NCBI GenBank assembly: GCA_026393755.1
Contig: JAPKZO010000028.1
Location: forward strand, 310,001-374,000
DNA from: Acidobacteriota bacterium
GTDB lineage: Bacteria; Acidobacteriota; Vicinamibacteria; Vicinamibacterales; JAKQTR01
Direction: 5' to 3'
DNA: 64,000 nucleotides
The translations under genes were made by a program, and so were the position numbers. The notes beneath the pieces were generated by a model, which did not search any database, was not told where the DNA came from, and was given only the letters and a program-made list of their open reading frames with translations. Positions 32,456 to 50,169 of this stretch are shown here, piece after piece; position 1 is the stretch's first letter, and each line of letters starts with the position of its first letter.

Positions 32456-33295
32456 TTACGAGGAATACCGCCGGAACGGTGCAATCCCAGCCTCCGCCGC
32501 ACCCGGACATAGAGCGCCGTCGCCGAGCGCTTGCTCGACCTGGCGAATAGACTGGACGAGCGCCTTGAACTCGATCGGGTCTGCCGACATCGCGTGGTCG
32601 GGTCCCTCCATGTTGCGATCCAATGTGAAGTGTTTCTCGATCAGCCTCGCCCCGGCCGCCACGGCCCACGTCGCCGCCCGTACACCGAGGGTGTGGTCGG
32701 AGTACCCCACTGGGAATTCATACTTCAGGGCCAGGCTGTGGATCGCAAGCAGATTAGCGTCATTCAGAGCCGTCGGGTAGGCGGACACACAATGCAGCAG
32801 AGCGATTGGACTTCCCTCAGCTGTAAGTGTCCCAATTGCACGGGACAGCTCCTGTTCGTTGGACGCGCCACGAGAGAGGAAGACGGGCTTCTTCGTCGCC
32901 GCAATACAGCGGAGCAACTCTTGGTGGTTGATGTCGAACGACGCCACCTTGAACACCGGCACGTCCAGGGCTTGAAGCAGCGCGACACTTTCGATGTCAA
33001 ACGGGGTTGAAAAGAACACGACGCCCAGTCGATCGGCCAGTGCCTTCAGGCGCTGGTGCGCGTCGAAATTGAGTTCACAGCCCTTGAGCAATCCCTGCAG
33101 CGGATGCGTGACCGGAACGCGTTTTTCGGTCAGGTACGTCTGGAACTTGACGGCGTCGGCACCGCACTTGACAGCCTGATCCACCAATTGCTCGGCAATC
33201 GACACGTCACCGTTGTGATTCAAACCAATCTCTGCAACGACGAATGTCGGAGATGTCCGCGAGATATTCCTTCCCGCCACATTGATGCTGTTCAT
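32456..33295 (-). CDS. NeuB/SpsE-type nonulosonate synthase lacking the SAF domain
   Basis: 279 aa TIM-barrel enzyme that should condense phosphoenolpyruvate with an aldose. It holds VVAEIGLNHNGDVSIAEQLV, DAVKFQTY, FFSTPFDIESV, VFKVASFDI, LLHCVSAYPT, GYSDHTLGVRAA and IEKHFTLDRNMEGPDHAMSA, all hallmark NeuB motifs. Known NeuB and SpsE proteins have about 340-370 residues and end in an SAF (antifreeze-like) domain that helps close the active site; this one stops at the junction (APFRRYSS). The ATG at 33295 has GGGAGA upstream. Because the barrel is intact and the gene is packed with the next one, the shorter form is probably natural rather than a recent truncation. Confidence 0.88.
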   Translation of the reverse strand: MNSINVAGRNISRTSPTFVVAEIGLNHNGDVSIAEQLVDQAVKCGADAVKFQTYLTEKRVPVTHPLQGLLKGCELNFDAHQRLKALADRLGVVFFSTPFDIESVALLQALDVPVFKVASFDINHQELLRCIAATKKPVFLSRGASNEQELSRAIGTLTAEGSPIALLHCVSAYPTALNDANLLAIHSLALKYEFPVGYSDHTLGVRAATWAVAAGARLIEKHFTLDRNMEGPDHAMSADPIEFKALVQSIRQVEQALGDGALCPGAAEAGIAPFRRYSS

Positions 33296-33378
33296 AATCT
33301 GTTCTCCCACGGGTACCCCAAACGCTCGCGGTCTGCGCTCATCTTCGGCGCGCGCTCATCTGACGACCACTCTCCCTG

Positions 33379-34179
33379 CTAAACCACGTTCCAGGCGTGG
33401 CTCGCCGCGACCGACCGGCAGAACTTGATCAACGCCGAAATGTCTCGGTAGTACTCCGGCGTCACGTAACGTAGACCTGTCGCGTGCGCTGTCCATCGCG
33501 CGCCAGCGACGACATCCTCTATGGGCGGGAGGCTGTGCGCATCGACCCAGCCCGAGCCGGTTTCCTTTGGCGCGCTAATGTGAACCTGCACCGTCCGGGT
33601 GAGTGGCAGTTGCGTGATGTAATCGCTCACTTGAACGCCGAGATGCGCGGCGCTAATTTGAGCGTGGCTCCAATCGAACACGAATCCGAGGTTTCCCTCG
33701 CGCGTCAGGTCCGTCAGAAATTGAGGATCGCACACGTCTTCATACGCGCCCGTCGGAAAGTAGTTGTTGTTCTCAATCGCGACGCTCGTCCCTTCCGGCA
33801 GCATCCCGGCAACCCGCGCGAGGTTCTTTGACGCGGTCTCCAGCATCTCTAATCGTCGCCGTCTCCGCCCGCTCGGCACGAATCTGCCATCGATAAGCTT
33901 CGGCCGGTTGTAACAGGACGCGACATGAAACGAGACCATCTCAATATCCGAGTACTCACCCACGATTCGGGCAAGGTGCGCCACTTGCTCGTCGGAGAAG
34001 TCTACGACGATGCTCGCGTCCGAATGATAGATGATGCGGTGAGACCGATTCTGTATTGTCTGGCTGTGGTCGCGAACCTCGAGAACACGTGCGAGCCTGA
34101 GAAGCGTGCCCACCAGCGAAGGATCGCCCCGGTCGATCAGTGTTGAAACCGGCAGCGCCAGCGACACGTGCTGACTCAC
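33379..34179 (-). CDS. MNIO/DUF692-like TIM-barrel protein, sugar-cluster type
   Basis: 266 aa. Reading by eye, the C-terminal half follows the DUF692/MNIO pattern: ENNNYFP (where DUF692 has ENPSSY), GFVFDWSHAQISAAHLG (LLLDVNNIYVSACNHG), YITQLPLTRTVQVHISAP (YLDALP..EIHLAGH) and WVDAHS (IDTH). Candidate metal ligands are about His85, Glu136, Asp169, His172, His200, Asp213 and His215. Characterised MNIO enzymes are iron oxidases that modify cysteine or other residues in RiPP peptides, but no precursor peptide is seen here. It could instead be a sugar phosphate isomerase of the xylose-isomerase fold. A GTG at 34179 overlaps the SDR stop (GTGA) and has GGAGGG upstream. Confidence 0.6.
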   Translation of the reverse strand: MSQHVSLALPVSTLIDRGDPSLVGTLLRLARVLEVRDHSQTIQNRSHRIIYHSDASIVVDFSDEQVAHLARIVGEYSDIEMVSFHVASCYNRPKLIDGRFVPSGRRRRRLEMLETASKNLARVAGMLPEGTSVAIENNNYFPTGAYEDVCDPQFLTDLTREGNLGFVFDWSHAQISAAHLGVQVSDYITQLPLTRTVQVHISAPKETGSGWVDAHSLPPIEDVVAGARWTAHATGLRYVTPEYYRDISALIKFCRSVAASHAWNVV

Positions 34180-34922
34180 CAAATTGTGAACCCTCCGTCG
34201 ACGACGAGGTTCTGGCCTGTCACGTAAGCGGCTGCGTCGGACGCGAGGTAGACGACGGCTCCCGCCATGTCGTCGGCTTCTCCCATCCTGCCCAATGGTG
34301 TCTTGTCGCTGTACCGCTGGACAAAATCGGTTCCTTGGCCGGCGTAGACCCCGCCGGGGCTGACACTATTGACCCGTATCTTGAACGGGGCAAGGTGAAC
34401 CGCCCAGTAGCGGGTCATTTGAATGATCGCAGCCTTTGAACCCGCGTAGACTTCTGACGTTCTCCGGGCACAATCGGTGTAGATGCGCGGATCGCCGCTG
34501 ACAATGCCGTACACGGAAGCGATATTCACGATGACCCCGCCCGTAGACTGGCGCTTCATCGCGCCTGCCGCCGCGTTCGTGCAGAGAATCGAGCCTAGGA
34601 CGTTCACGTCGAACACGAACCGGTACTCGTCAACGGTCCGCTGATCGAACGGGGTAAACACGGCCACCCCGGCGTTGTTGATGAGGAGGTCAAGGCGGCC
34701 CTCCCGCGCAATCACGTCGCTGACACCTGCGTCGACAGAAATGGGATCGCGCACATCCAGGTGGACATGGCCGATGTCTTCCGAGTCACCAGCGACGGGG
34801 CGGACCAGATCGCCGCCATAGACTCGGTAACTCCCGCGTCGGAGGGCGCGGCAGAACGCTGTTCCCAATTGTCCGCTGCCCCCTGTAACGAGCGCAACCC
34901 GCGCGTTCTGGTTTGGCGTCAT
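34176..34922 (-). CDS. SDR family oxidoreductase (classical, FabG-like fold)
   Basis: 248 aa classical short-chain dehydrogenase. It has VALVTGGSGQLGTAFCRAL (nucleotide site), LDLLINNAGVAVFTP (NNAG), IVNIASVYGI (catalytic Ser) and SEVYAGSKAAIIQMTRYW (YxxxK), and ends in VTGQNLVVDGGFTIW. It resembles PtmA-type and other oxidoreductases found with nonulosonate clusters. It overlaps the WecE-like gene stop by 4 bp and the MNIO-like gene start by 4 bp, so three genes are coupled. The likely role is oxidation or reduction of a sugar hydroxyl; the substrate is unknown. Confidence 0.88.
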   Translation of the reverse strand: MTPNQNARVALVTGGSGQLGTAFCRALRRGSYRVYGGDLVRPVAGDSEDIGHVHLDVRDPISVDAGVSDVIAREGRLDLLINNAGVAVFTPFDQRTVDEYRFVFDVNVLGSILCTNAAAGAMKRQSTGGVIVNIASVYGIVSGDPRIYTDCARRTSEVYAGSKAAIIQMTRYWAVHLAPFKIRVNSVSPGGVYAGQGTDFVQRYSDKTPLGRMGEADDMAGAVVYLASDAAAYVTGQNLVVDGGFTIW

Positions 34923-36058
34923 GCGTATTCCGTTACTGCGGCGACGAACGCATCAGCGACGCGCGCCCGATCGGCGTCGGAAAGCGTCGGATAGAGAGGC
35001 AACCTGATGAGCCGGGCTGCGTAATCGTCGGTGACTGGTAGCTCCTGGGGAGCGCCGAGCGTACTTCCGAATGGAGACGAATGCAGGGGAATATAGTGAA
35101 AAGTCGCACCGATTCCAGCCGAACGGAGCCTCGAAATTACCAAGTCGCGGGCCGTCGCGTTCTTGGTGAACACCACAAATAGATGATAGTTCGGCGTTAC
35201 CTCAGGAAGCGTCTCGGGCAACTCAATGAGCCCGGCCTTTTCCAACTCGTCAAAGCGGTGTCGGTAGAAAAGCCAGTGTTCAGCTCGCTTCGATTTGATC
35301 CACGATTGTTTGGCGAGTTGTTGTTGCAGAATTGCCGCCAGAACGTCGGACAGCACGTAACTGCTGCCAACTCGAACCCATGTGTATTTGTCCACCTGTC
35401 CACGCAGGAAGGCCGAGCGGTTTGTGCCTTTTTCGCGAATGATTTCAGCTTTCGCGGCCAGCGTGTCGTCATTCGTGAGCAGCGCGCCCCCTTCTCCACA
35501 CCCGAGGTTCTTTGTGTGATGGAAACTGAGACACCCAAGTTGACCGATTGTGCCAAGAAAGCGCTCACGATACCGCGCAAAGACCGCCTGGGCTGCGTCT
35601 TCGATCAAGGGCACACCGGAATCTTCGGACAACTTCTGGAGGGCCTCCATGTCACACGCAATTCCGGAATAGTGGACCGGCATGATCGCGCGTGTTCGTG
35701 CCGTCACTTTTCTGGCCACGTCTAGGGGATCCAGTGTCATCAAGCGGGGTTGCACGTCGGCAAAAACCGGAGTCGCCCCCCTCAGCACGATCGCGTTGGC
35801 GCACGACGAAAACGTGAAGCTCGGGAGAATGACTTCGTCGCCTGCGCCGATTTCCAGCGCCATCATCGAAATCTCAAGGGCATGACTTCCCGATGTAGTC
35901 AGGAATACATGTCCGACCTGAAGCGCGCAGCGAAACTCGGCTTCGACCTCCGCGCACACGCGTCCCCCGCCAATGCCTCCTTGCGCTCGAATCACCCGGG
36001 CGGCAGAGGCGATTTCGGCTTCGTCATAACAGGGCTGCTGCAATGGAATCTCAATCAC
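34919..36058 (-). CDS. DegT/DnrJ/EryC1-type sugar aminotransferase, WecE/RffA-like
   Basis: 379 aa PLP aminotransferase acting on a nucleotide-linked 4-keto sugar. The resemblance to WecE/RffA is close: FLGTIGQLGCLSFHHTKNL (Schiff-base Lys), GCGEGGALLTNDD, IIREKGTNRSAFLRGQVDKY, TWVRVGSSYVLSDVLAA, and ATFHYIPLHSSPFG. In the enterobacterial common antigen pathway WecE makes dTDP-4-amino-4,6-dideoxygalactose; the acetyltransferase partner WecD also has a homologue in this module. Start is placed at a GTG at 36058 (VIEIPLQQPCYDE) with GAGAGGA upstream; a start at 36124 would add 22 unrelated residues. Confidence 0.88.
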   Translation of the reverse strand: MIEIPLQQPCYDEAEIASAARVIRAQGGIGGGRVCAEVEAEFRCALQVGHVFLTTSGSHALEISMMALEIGAGDEVILPSFTFSSCANAIVLRGATPVFADVQPRLMTLDPLDVARKVTARTRAIMPVHYSGIACDMEALQKLSEDSGVPLIEDAAQAVFARYRERFLGTIGQLGCLSFHHTKNLGCGEGGALLTNDDTLAAKAEIIREKGTNRSAFLRGQVDKYTWVRVGSSYVLSDVLAAILQQQLAKQSWIKSKRAEHWLFYRHRFDELEKAGLIELPETLPEVTPNYHLFVVFTKNATARDLVISRLRSAGIGATFHYIPLHSSPFGSTLGAPQELPVTDDYAARLIRLPLYPTLSDADRARVADAFVAAVTEYA

Positions 36059-36124
36059 GTCTGGAGATCCTCTCGGGAGAAACACGGCGTTCGAACGTCC
36101 TGCGAGTTGTGTGTCAACGCTCAC

Positions 36125-36326: not shown

Positions 36327-37346
36327 CTACCCGTTCATCGTGCGTGTGCGGCCCGGCTGCTTGTCCCGCCCCGGCGTGATGTGTAGATTCCGCAGTTTTC
36401 TATAGAGATTTGTCCGCTGGATGCCCAGCGCACGCGCGGCGGCGGAAACGCGGCCCTGGTGCTGGGCGACCACGGCGGCGATGTAATCACGCTCGAAATG
36501 CTGGCGGGCGTCGCGCAGGCTTATTCCCAGATTCCAGGAAATCAGGGGGCTGCCCTCAAGTCGCACGCTGTCGAGAAGCGCGTTCAAGTCGATGGTGCCG
36601 CCCAGGACCTTGATGGTCAGCGTCTCGACAAGACCCATCAGTTCGCGCACATTGCCGCGCCACGGCATGGCGGCAAGGACAGAGCATGCGGCCGGGTCAA
36701 TGGTCTTTGCCGGAATGTCGATCTTGTGGCACGCGTTGGCGAGCAGGAACCCCGCGAGGGCAGGGATTTCCGTGCGGCATTCCCTAAGTGGCGGCAACTT
36801 GATCTGGTTCGCAGAGAAACGACGGTAGAGATCGACGCGGAGACGTCCATCCTTCACCATTGCCTCAGCATCGGGGTCGACCGCTGCCATCGGCCTGACA
36901 TCGTATGAAATCTTCGGACCTCGTGAACCAACCAGACACTCCCGGTCTCTCAGGAGTCGCGCCAGACGGCCTTGCGCACCTGCGGGCAGTTCTTCAAGAT
37001 TCCGGAAGTAGATTGTCCCGCCGATGGCGTCATGAAGAGCGGAGCCCGGGTAGATTGGCTCGCACGCGCGGCCGACGGCTTGAAGACTGTCGCCCGGGCC
37101 GGATCCTCCAAAGAGCCGCTTCTCGTTTTCGCTGTGGTTTTCGCCGGCGCAGTAGACAGCCACGAATGGGGCGCCGGGCGGATTGCGTCTCGCGTGGATG
37201 GCGCGGGCGACTATGCCCCGACCCGTGCCGGGTTCTCCGTACACGAGGACACCCCTGGGGTTGTCGACAACTCGATCGACTTGCTCGAGGACATCGCGCA
37301 TCGGACTCGAACGCCCGATTAGCCCGAGAGTGTCATCAGTAGACAT
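36327..37346 (-). CDS. NtrC-type AAA+ regulator with degenerate ATPase motifs
   Basis: 339 aa in the layout of a sigma-54 activator without a receiver domain: AAA+ module (residues about 1-235) and a C-terminal Fis-type HTH (AARALGIQRTNLYRKLRNL). The R-finger region survives (RLRVDLYRRFSANQIKLPPL). However, Walker A reads GEPGTGRG with Arg43 for the Lys, the Walker B region reads TIYFRN in place of the usual FLDE, and no GAFTGA loop is found near residue 80 (LFGGSGPGDSLQ instead). It probably binds DNA but cannot remodel sigma-54 polymerase in the usual way. Position at the head of the sps-like run suggests control of this locus. Confidence 0.85.
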   Translation of the reverse strand: MSTDDTLGLIGRSSPMRDVLEQVDRVVDNPRGVLVYGEPGTGRGIVARAIHARRNPPGAPFVAVYCAGENHSENEKRLFGGSGPGDSLQAVGRACEPIYPGSALHDAIGGTIYFRNLEELPAGAQGRLARLLRDRECLVGSRGPKISYDVRPMAAVDPDAEAMVKDGRLRVDLYRRFSANQIKLPPLRECRTEIPALAGFLLANACHKIDIPAKTIDPAACSVLAAMPWRGNVRELMGLVETLTIKVLGGTIDLNALLDSVRLEGSPLISWNLGISLRDARQHFERDYIAAVVAQHQGRVSAAARALGIQRTNLYRKLRNLHITPGRDKQPGRTRTMNG

Positions 37347-37667
37347 AGCTTCGCCCTGTCACTTACAAGAGCAAGCGCACTGCAGCCCCCACGGCTGGAA
37401 AGACAGACCGGGAACGCCACCACCAGAACAGCCGAAGACATACTGTTCGGAGACCAAGGCGCGGCGGCTGGCCCGGTTGGCAGCAGGCGTGTATTCTATC
37501 TCCGCCCGGTATTGTGTCAACACTTAACCAAGTGTGGCGGCGATGATACGGGCGCTCAGTGCGCTCGTTCCGTCTGTTTTCCGTGACGTACCCCCGGGAT
37601 GAAATGCTGGTCGGGGACGCCGTCTCCGGGTGGAACGGCTACGCCTGTCATTGCACACGCGTCGATT
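37347..37667. promoter_or_regulatory. intergenic region with an inverted repeat, candidate control region of the sps-like run
   Basis: The 320 bp gap upstream of the degenerate AAA+ regulator contains no convincing frame. A 6-bp inverted repeat (ACACTT at 37520-37525 and AAGTGT at 37530-37535, 4-base loop) lies about 175 bp upstream of the regulator start. The ten bases GTCAACACTT (37516-37525) recur exactly at 40807-40816 in another promoter-size gap. No clear sigma-54 (GG-N10-GC) or sigma-70 element could be fixed. Confidence 0.4.
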
Positions 37668-46491: not shown

Positions 46492-47412
46492 CTACCGCCG
46501 CGCGGCGCGGGCGCGGGCACGCGGCTTCTCGGCCGCGACAGCCAGCGGCATCCGCGTCCAGGTCGCCACCATCTGCTTACGCTGCTCGGGCGAGGTGGCC
46601 ACCTGCGTCGGCGCGGTCGCCAGTTGCGCCTTGAGCATCCTGGGCTTCTGCTGAAAAGCCCATACGGCCTCGCGCAGAATTTTGCCCGCCGACTTCGGAT
46701 CGGCCTCGGAGCCGAGCGCAACGCGCAGACGCTGAATCGCCCGCGTGTGCAACTGCGACACGCGCGATTCGTTGACCCCAATACTGCCTCCGATATCCTT
46801 CATCGTCACATCGCCGTAGTAATACATGCCGACGACCTTGCGCTCGCGCCAGGGCAACGACGCAATGGCGGCACGCACGCGGTCGCGGGTCTCGCCTGTC
46901 TCGAAGGCTTTGGCGGGCGACATGGGCTCAGACGGCATCAGCGCGGCCGGCAAATTCACGTCATCGCCGCCATCGGTGCTGGAGTGCGGTGAGGTCGATT
47001 CAATCGTGTTGATGCGGACGATGGTGCGGTTGAGGCGCTTTTCGTCGGAGCCGACCTTGGCGGCCAGATCCGCGACCGACGGCTCGCAGCCCATCGTGAT
47101 GCGCAGTTCCTCGCGCGCGGCTTCGAGCTCGCGGCGGACGCGGCGGACGCCACGCGGCCAGGCTTCGCGCCGAAGCGCGTCAATCATCGCGCCCCGCACG
47201 CGCCGCTCGGCGAACGTCTCGAACTTGATGCCGCGGCCTTCGTCGAACCGGGAGGCTGCGTCAATCAGACCCACCACGCCGTCCTGGACGAGGTCGCTGA
47301 TGTCGATCGAGTGTGGCATCGACGCCGCCATCCGGCGCGCGAGCGACTCAACAAACGGCAACGTCCTGACGACTCTGTCGTGATTCTCAACCTGGTGTGT
47401 CTGACCGTTCAT
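46492..47412 (-). CDS. FliA/WhiG-type RNA polymerase sigma factor
   Basis: 306 aa. Regions 1.2-2 are present (LPFVESLARRMAASM, DISDLVQDGVVGLIDAA, FETFAERRVRGAMIDALRR), region 3 (GCEPSVADLAAKVGSDEKR), and a region 4 HTH (MKDIGGSIGVNESRVSQLHT). This is the FliA/WhiG subgroup of sigma-70 factors, which usually read TAAA-N15-GCCGATAA promoters. About 60 extra basic residues follow region 4, which is unusual for the group. No flagellar gene occurs in the window, so its regulon may be something else. Two small regulatory genes lie upstream. Confidence 0.9.
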   Translation of the reverse strand: MNGQTHQVENHDRVVRTLPFVESLARRMAASMPHSIDISDLVQDGVVGLIDAASRFDEGRGIKFETFAERRVRGAMIDALRREAWPRGVRRVRRELEAAREELRITMGCEPSVADLAAKVGSDEKRLNRTIVRINTIESTSPHSSTDGGDDVNLPAALMPSEPMSPAKAFETGETRDRVRAAIASLPWRERKVVGMYYYGDVTMKDIGGSIGVNESRVSQLHTRAIQRLRVALGSEADPKSAGKILREAVWAFQQKPRMLKAQLATAPTQVATSPEQRKQMVATWTRMPLAVAAEKPRARARAARR

Positions 47413-49617: not shown

Positions 49618-50169
49618 TCAATACTTCCGCACGTCGGCGGCGTCGAGGCGAACTTCGACTCCGCGGTTGATCATCGTGATCGCGACCAGGAGCATCGTCT
49701 TTGGCCCCTTGTGGATCAGGCGTCCGGTCACACCCTTGAGCGGGCCGTGCATGACCTCGACGAGGTCGCCTTCGTGCAGGAGCGGACACGGATCGAATTG
49801 CAGATCGGATGAGACGACGCGCTGGATGGCCTCAATCTCGGCGTTGGGAATCGGCGCCAGTTCGCCATCAAACGAGATGATCGTCGCGACGCCCACGCAC
49901 TTTCGCACATCGAGCGCCGCTCGCCTGTCGAAGCGCGCGAAGCAGTAGCCCGGGAACAGCGGCCAGTCGACCTTCTTCTTGCGGTCCTTCCAGCGGCTCC
50001 ATCGCTGGATTGTCGGCAGGAAGACCTCGATGTGCTTTCGCTCCAGTTGCTCGACGACGGACTTTTCGGCGCGGCTGCGCGTCCAGATGGCGTACCACGG
50101 GGATTGGTCGGAGATGACCAGGTCGGGAACCAGAATGTCGCTCGCGCTGGTGTCGTCGCTCACGGACAT
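49618..50169 (-). CDS. NusG-like transcription antitermination factor, UpxY family
   Basis: 183 aa. The NGN domain (residues about 22-115) includes WYAIWTRSRAEKSVVEQLER and LFPGYCFARFD; the KOW domain near the C-terminus has LHEGDLVEVMHGPLKGVTGR. UpxY-type specialised NusG paralogues bind polymerase at capsule or O-antigen operons to allow long transcripts. It is some 9 kb from the nearest polysaccharide gene in the other part of the window, so it may serve the large locus in trans. A 35-bp tandem repeat array lies just upstream of its start. Confidence 0.88.
   Translation of the reverse strand: MSVSDDTSASDILVPDLVISDQSPWYAIWTRSRAEKSVVEQLERKHIEVFLPTIQRWSRWKDRKKKVDWPLFPGYCFARFDRRAALDVRKCVGVATIISFDGELAPIPNAEIEAIQRVVSSDLQFDPCPLLHEGDLVEVMHGPLKGVTGRLIHKGPKTMLLVAITMINRGVEVRLDAADVRKY

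Follow-up and report, generated by a model that had tools for sequence, protein, structure and literature searches.

Single sigma-54 activators that lack the GAFTGA motif and have turned into regulators of the sigma-70 type are already known. VpsR of Vibrio cholerae has no GAFTGA motif, acts at sigma-70 promoters and does not need ATP, and its N-terminal domain retains a conserved aspartyl site (PMC10274813); the genes that it regulates are polysaccharide genes (PMC9303241). NtrC of Rhodobacter capsulatus likewise lacks GAFTGA and works at sigma-70 promoters, where ATP binding is needed but hydrolysis is not, and in the NtrC of Caulobacter, also active at sigma-70 promoters, GAFTGA is deleted and the Walker residues are needed (PMC10274813). 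For the canonical activator motor, the ATPase activity of PspF is 39.5 per min, and is undetectable in the K42A mutant, 0.23 in D107A and 0.15 in E108A; the RxDxxxR R-hand described for the same protein acts in trans (PMC3419264). At the level of elongation, the ops pause GGCGGTAGCGTG is read by RfaH (PMC5995543).

The protein described here is encoded in a 64,000-nucleotide stretch of Acidobacteriota DNA (the window, Table 1), and resembles VpsR in being a GAFTGA-less member of the NtrC family with probable polysaccharide targets and a similar predicted fold, but has no N-terminal domain with an aspartyl site. It differs from the R. capsulatus and Caulobacter NtrC proteins in that these need ATP binding or Walker residues, plus a phosphorylated receiver. 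By analogy, it may work like VpsR or R. capsulatus NtrC while belonging to neither. PrsR is an NtrC-type regulator family tied to exopolysaccharide clusters, and its model (PEP-CTERM-box response regulator, TIGR02915) matches the query with an E-value of 4.5e-43, at a score of 148 against a cut-off of 503; PrsR is a separate, canonical activator family. What is new is a clade spread over many genera without receiver chemistry, Walker A, Walker B and GAFTGA, which has kept its helix-turn-helix (HTH) and its placement at polysaccharide genes.

Table 1. Position of the regulator gene, its motifs and associated features in the window
Feature	Position	Strand	Remark
Pseudo-NtrX regulator gene	36327..37346	(-)	339 aa; AAA+ core, lid, Fis HTH; without receiver domain
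Degenerate Walker A, residues 37-44 GEPGTGRG, K to R43	37215..37238	(-)	R43 invariant in the nine aligned members of A1
Expected GAFTGA L1 loop region, residues 81-104, without GAFTGA	37035..37106	(-)	Sequence inspection
Degenerate Walker B, residues 111-116 TIYFRN, DE to R115 N116	36999..37016	(-)	Alignment
Kept R-hand RxDxxxR: R170, D172, R176	36819..36839	(-)	All three invariant in nine members
Fis-type HTH and preceding helix, residues 276-323	36378..36521	(-)	Best conserved part of the clade
JUMPstart/ops-like leader element TTGTAAGTGACAGGGCGAAGC	37348..37368	(-)	Ends just before the ATG of the query
Sigma-70-type promoter candidate TTGACA-16-TAGAAT	37493..37520	(-)	11/12 consensus matches
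DegT/DnrJ/EryC1/StrS sugar aminotransferase	34919..36124	(-)	First biosynthetic gene downstream
NeuB-family sialic/nonulosonic acid synthase	32456..33310	(-)	Same glycan run
Specialised NusG paralogue, RfaH-like candidate	49618..50169	(-)	183 aa

Motif content of the regulator

The reading frame of the regulator begins with ATG and is free of stop codons. Pfam recognises Sigma54_activat (PF00158) at residues 9-182 (E 2.3e-24, 86.4 bits against a cut-off of 20.2), AAA_lid_14 at 188-262 and, as C-terminal Fis-type HTH, HTH_8 (PF02954) at 284-319 (E 2.2e-10), while no receiver domain was found in the scan of the 339-aa protein. An earlier note on this DNA had read the protein as an activator that has lost the Walker A lysine, the Walker B acidic pair and the GAFTGA loop and has kept the R-finger region and a good Fis-type HTH, and each of these readings is borne out by the residues listed in Table 1. 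No GAFTGA is present between LFG and Walker B, and LFGGSGPGDSLQAVGRACEPIYPGSAL stands where the LFG...GAFTGA loop belongs; alignment with the intact NtrX of the same genome revealed no intact motifs elsewhere in the protein. Among the hallmarks of a bEBP (NtrC family), the AAA+ profile, the R-hand and the Fis HTH are thus present, and GAFTGA, the Walker A Lys and the Walker B DE are absent. Since loss of the Walker A lysine or of either Walker B residue is by itself enough to abolish, or almost abolish, the ATPase activity of PspF (PMC3419264), the query is predicted to have lost ATPase activity as well. Such proteins still match sigma-54 activator models, and are therefore liable to be miscounted in predictions of RpoN regulons.

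Descent from an NtrX-type activator and extent of the degenerate clade

The best paralogue of the query in its own genome is NtrX (L002, 38% identity), and NtrX is also its best NCBIfam model (NF051870), albeit at 174.5 bits against a cut-off of 600 and hence below the curated threshold. The best solved structure by sequence is the Brucella abortus NtrX (5m7n), and NtrX is again the best match by fold when the AlphaFold2 model of the query (mean pLDDT 81) is used. These matches in sequence and fold, together with the paralogue, suggest an ancestor of the NtrX type. The layout of AAA+ domain, lid and Fis HTH is shared with NtrX, as is an NtrX-like C-terminus, whereas NtrX retains the receiver, Walker A Lys, GAFTGA and Walker B that the query has lost. 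The phosphoacceptor Asp of an NtrX receiver is likewise missing, as the query has no receiver and the receivers of its relatives are degenerate.

Strong matches to the query were found in 10/60 related genomes including its own, with the other nine being 39-51% identical. When 193 genomes of the class were searched with a profile, high-scoring members turned up in some forty, and for some genomes membership is by profile score rather than by residue inspection. A scan of a named genome collection for close relatives returned only two proteins, both distant and intact. We inspected 40 distinct degenerate relatives from the order of the query residue by residue, the gene starts having been called mechanically: GAFTGA and the Walker B DE are absent from all 40, and the Walker A lysine is retained in only two (L029 and L085). 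Proteins in the query's subclade usually have GExGTGR at Walker A, Arg replacing Lys, while in a second subclade of proteins of about 350 aa, also without receiver, the P-loop is further eroded to AExGxxxxxVAR. Relatives with a longer N-terminus carry a receiver-like domain which lacks the acidic pair, the Thr/Ser and the Lys, and which in the one example scanned (L022) was not recognised as a receiver by Pfam.

A maximum-likelihood tree unites all degenerate proteins of the order in a single clade (support 100/100) that lies among intact NtrX-like proteins; its sister group consists of five intact proteins from another order of the class, followed by the NtrX of the query genome. This branch supports one event of motif loss at the base of a clade common to many genera of the order, and because of the nesting among NtrX-like proteins these losses are probably separate in origin from those of VpsR. 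The earliest branch, L029 (G006:C306:18934-19869), has kept the Walker A Lys and lost GAFTGA and Walker B, which suggests that the parts needed for sigma-54 were lost before the Walker A lysine. The clade would represent a complete transition from motor to scaffold of which the intermediate L029 is still extant. Genome G006 carries L029, a member of the second subclade and an intact NtrX, and so holds a natural series of intermediates.

As a control we used NtrX from 20 genomes of the order, selected because each, judged by sequence or profile score, also has a protein of the degenerate clade, and found Walker A, GAFTGA and Walker B intact in 20/20. With the same losses in 40 distinct relatives and NtrX intact in these 20 genomes, the losses are neither chance nor a sequencing slip. 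When the same genome pairs are compared, pairwise identity in the AAA core is 0.50 for the clade and 0.88 for NtrX, as opposed to 0.73 and 0.85 in the HTH; for the second subclade the corresponding values are 0.46 vs 0.86 (AAA core) and 0.77 vs 0.86 (HTH). The AAA core has been released from constraint, and the DNA-reading HTH much less so.

Genomic context at exopolysaccharide genes

The query heads a glycan run on the minus strand (the sps-like run of the earlier note), with genes for a DegT aminotransferase, an SDR protein, a TIM-barrel protein, NeuB and a class III aminotransferase. The TIM-barrel protein (window 33379-34182 (-)) is of the MbnB/TglH/ChrH-like type (PF05114, E 5e-11), which is unexpected beside NeuB. 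Members of the clade are almost always placed at exopolysaccharide operons. In relatives, where the names of neighbouring genes are partly our own reading of the sequences, the regulator gene is flanked on one side by the gene for a small lipoprotein that has EF-hand-like repeats and on the other by an operon encoding an outer-membrane barrel, an OPX exporter (Wza-type) and a Wzc-type chain-length protein, often adjacent to Dus, SurA-like, Mfd and NusG-like genes; a matching Dus, NusG-like, SurA-like and Mfd block is present at 48-56 kb of the window. In many relatives (L033:4484-5134 (-), L034, L036, L088 and others) the gene for the EF-hand-like lipoprotein immediately precedes that of the regulator or else the barrel and OPX genes, and no copy was seen beside the query gene. 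The window also encodes a sigma-70-family factor with regions 2, 3 and 4 (46492-47412 (-)), which has counterparts of 70-84% identity near the polysaccharide or degenerate-regulator loci of L032, L034, L036 and L139.

The gap upstream of the query (37347-37667) holds both a sigma-70-type promoter candidate and a conserved leader element. Sigma-54-type promoters are not in excess in the window (4 found vs 4.75 expected). A palindromic operator shared upstream of the operons was sought by enumeration of exact dyads at 19 loci and by EM with a palindromic model; neither approach turned up a convincing dyad, and what EM exposed was the non-palindromic leader element.

Mode of action and alternative explanations

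Taken with the comparative evidence, which supports the view in the earlier note of a DNA-binding regulator evolved from an NtrC-type activator without ATP-driven sigma-54 opening, the query is probably a regulator of surface polysaccharide genes of NtrX-type descent that no longer remodels sigma-54 polymerase by means of ATP. The comparison also refines that view, in that it supports an ancestor of the NtrX type, one loss at the base of the clade and, as the most likely targets, the adjacent exopolysaccharide genes. The AAA+ domain would serve as a non-hydrolysing scaffold, probably for oligomerisation or ligand binding, and the Fis HTH would read DNA near promoters, from where the regulator may act on, or block, RNA polymerase of the sigma-70 class without ATP-driven remodelling. 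The GAFTGA-less precedents at sigma-70 promoters support this ATP-independent reading; also in its favour are the good sigma-70-type promoter ahead of the gene and the number of sigma-54-type promoters in the window, which is no higher than expected. Some observations sit less easily with it: the three R-hand residues are invariant in the nine A1 proteins, which is odd for a subunit interface without nucleotide, and some nucleotide binding with an Arg in Walker A is possible; moreover, rpoN is present in the genome together with over twenty other matches of the sigma-54-activator type, and a palindromic operator was not found.

The retained R-hand, which in PspF acts in trans (PMC3419264), would also fit a protein that co-assembles into rings with an intact bEBP, for instance NtrX, where it either contributes arginine fingers or poisons the assembly and thereby modulates sigma-54 transcription; intact NtrX is available in the same genomes, and rpoN in that of the query. 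We regard such a role as quite unlikely, since a protein without GAFTGA adds nothing to the contact with sigma-54, the P-loop glycines too are lost in the second subclade, and the clade has a well-conserved HTH of its own and a location at polysaccharide operons. Loss of function and decay towards a pseudogene might be read from the many missing catalytic residues and the missing receiver of the query, but this is already contradicted by conservation across the order and is very improbable: the frame is open in almost all relatives, there is one old origin over many genera, R43 is invariant in A1, the HTH is 73% identical between genomes and the neighbourhood is constant.

A more specific mechanism, compatible with the ATP-free scaffold that we prefer, is that the dead ATP pocket or another surface of the AAA domain binds a second messenger, e.g. 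c-di-GMP, which controls DNA binding. FleQ and VpsR bind c-di-GMP, and in FleQ an LFRS motif precedes the AAA domain. The modelled fold of the query resembles those of VpsR (Foldseek E 4e-17) and FleQ, but the overall fold match is common to all bEBPs, and no FleQ-type LFRS-like motif was seen by eye before the AAA domain; we therefore consider ligand gating unlikely, even with target genes of the same type as those of VpsR (PMC9303241).

A leader element and a specialised NusG paralogue

With regard to the leader element, its consensus is CTGTRASNSACRGGGCRRAGC(T), and it was found in 56/193 genomes of the class, all within the order of the query, with few matches to a reversed control pattern. 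The genome of the query has exactly two copies within one mismatch of the 21-base pattern, one preceding the query gene and the other preceding an OPX/Wzc exopolysaccharide operon 117 kb away. Alignment with the E. coli JUMPstart sequence (between galF and wzx) gave a score of 24, which was reached by 9/5000 shuffles, and when all instances were used none of 200 column permutations reached the similarity. The layout of the element core GGGGCGRAGCTG parallels that of the ops pause, although the exact ops core GGCGGTAG is absent from the element, the core being GGGCGRAGC. An Rfam scan of the window gave no match. Extraordinarily stable DNA mini-hairpins with the sequence GCGAAGC have been published, and we take the core GCGRAGC to be of this type; what RfaH reads is a non-template-strand hairpin. 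When the element was folded as DNA under standard parameters, no stable hairpin resulted.

Across the order, 34/43 genomes with a degenerate regulator carry the element vs 22/119 in which none was detected, counts which ignore kinship and use a pattern built partly from loci that were later counted. In view of this statistical tie the element may have a double role and also serve as operator of the regulator. The element as mainly the regulator's own operator was rejected, given that 22 genomes carry it although no degenerate regulator was detected in them; in many of these that were inspected, it lies upstream of the same lipoprotein, barrel and OPX operons. Among relatives that have a degenerate regulator, the nearest (G003) lacks a good copy of the element.

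The specialised NusG paralogue encoded in the window was found in 120/162 genomes of the order at 53-100% identity and, at the same stringency, in none outside it, and is present in 51/56 element-bearing genomes (kinship ignored). Because of the 22 genomes mentioned above, the element is more likely to be the site of this paralogue, a candidate RfaH-like antiterminator, than the operator of the regulator. The likeness to the RfaH, ops and JUMPstart system of enterobacteria is that the element precedes polysaccharide operons and that a specialised NusG paralogue occurs in the same genomes, whereas the bacterial group is a different one and the core is GGGGCGAAGCTG here vs GGCGGTAGCGTG there. 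Element and paralogue together make it testable whether polysaccharide operons of this order are controlled in an RfaH-like way. The wider picture, in which the clade has lost both receiver chemistry and AAA+ motor to become ATP-free scaffolds at exopolysaccharide operons that also carry an element read by an RfaH-like NusG paralogue, is tentative, and seems to us possible rather than probable; if true, two repurposed general factors would govern initiation and elongation of one polysaccharide regulon. The element is also located at L131:12319-12339 (-).
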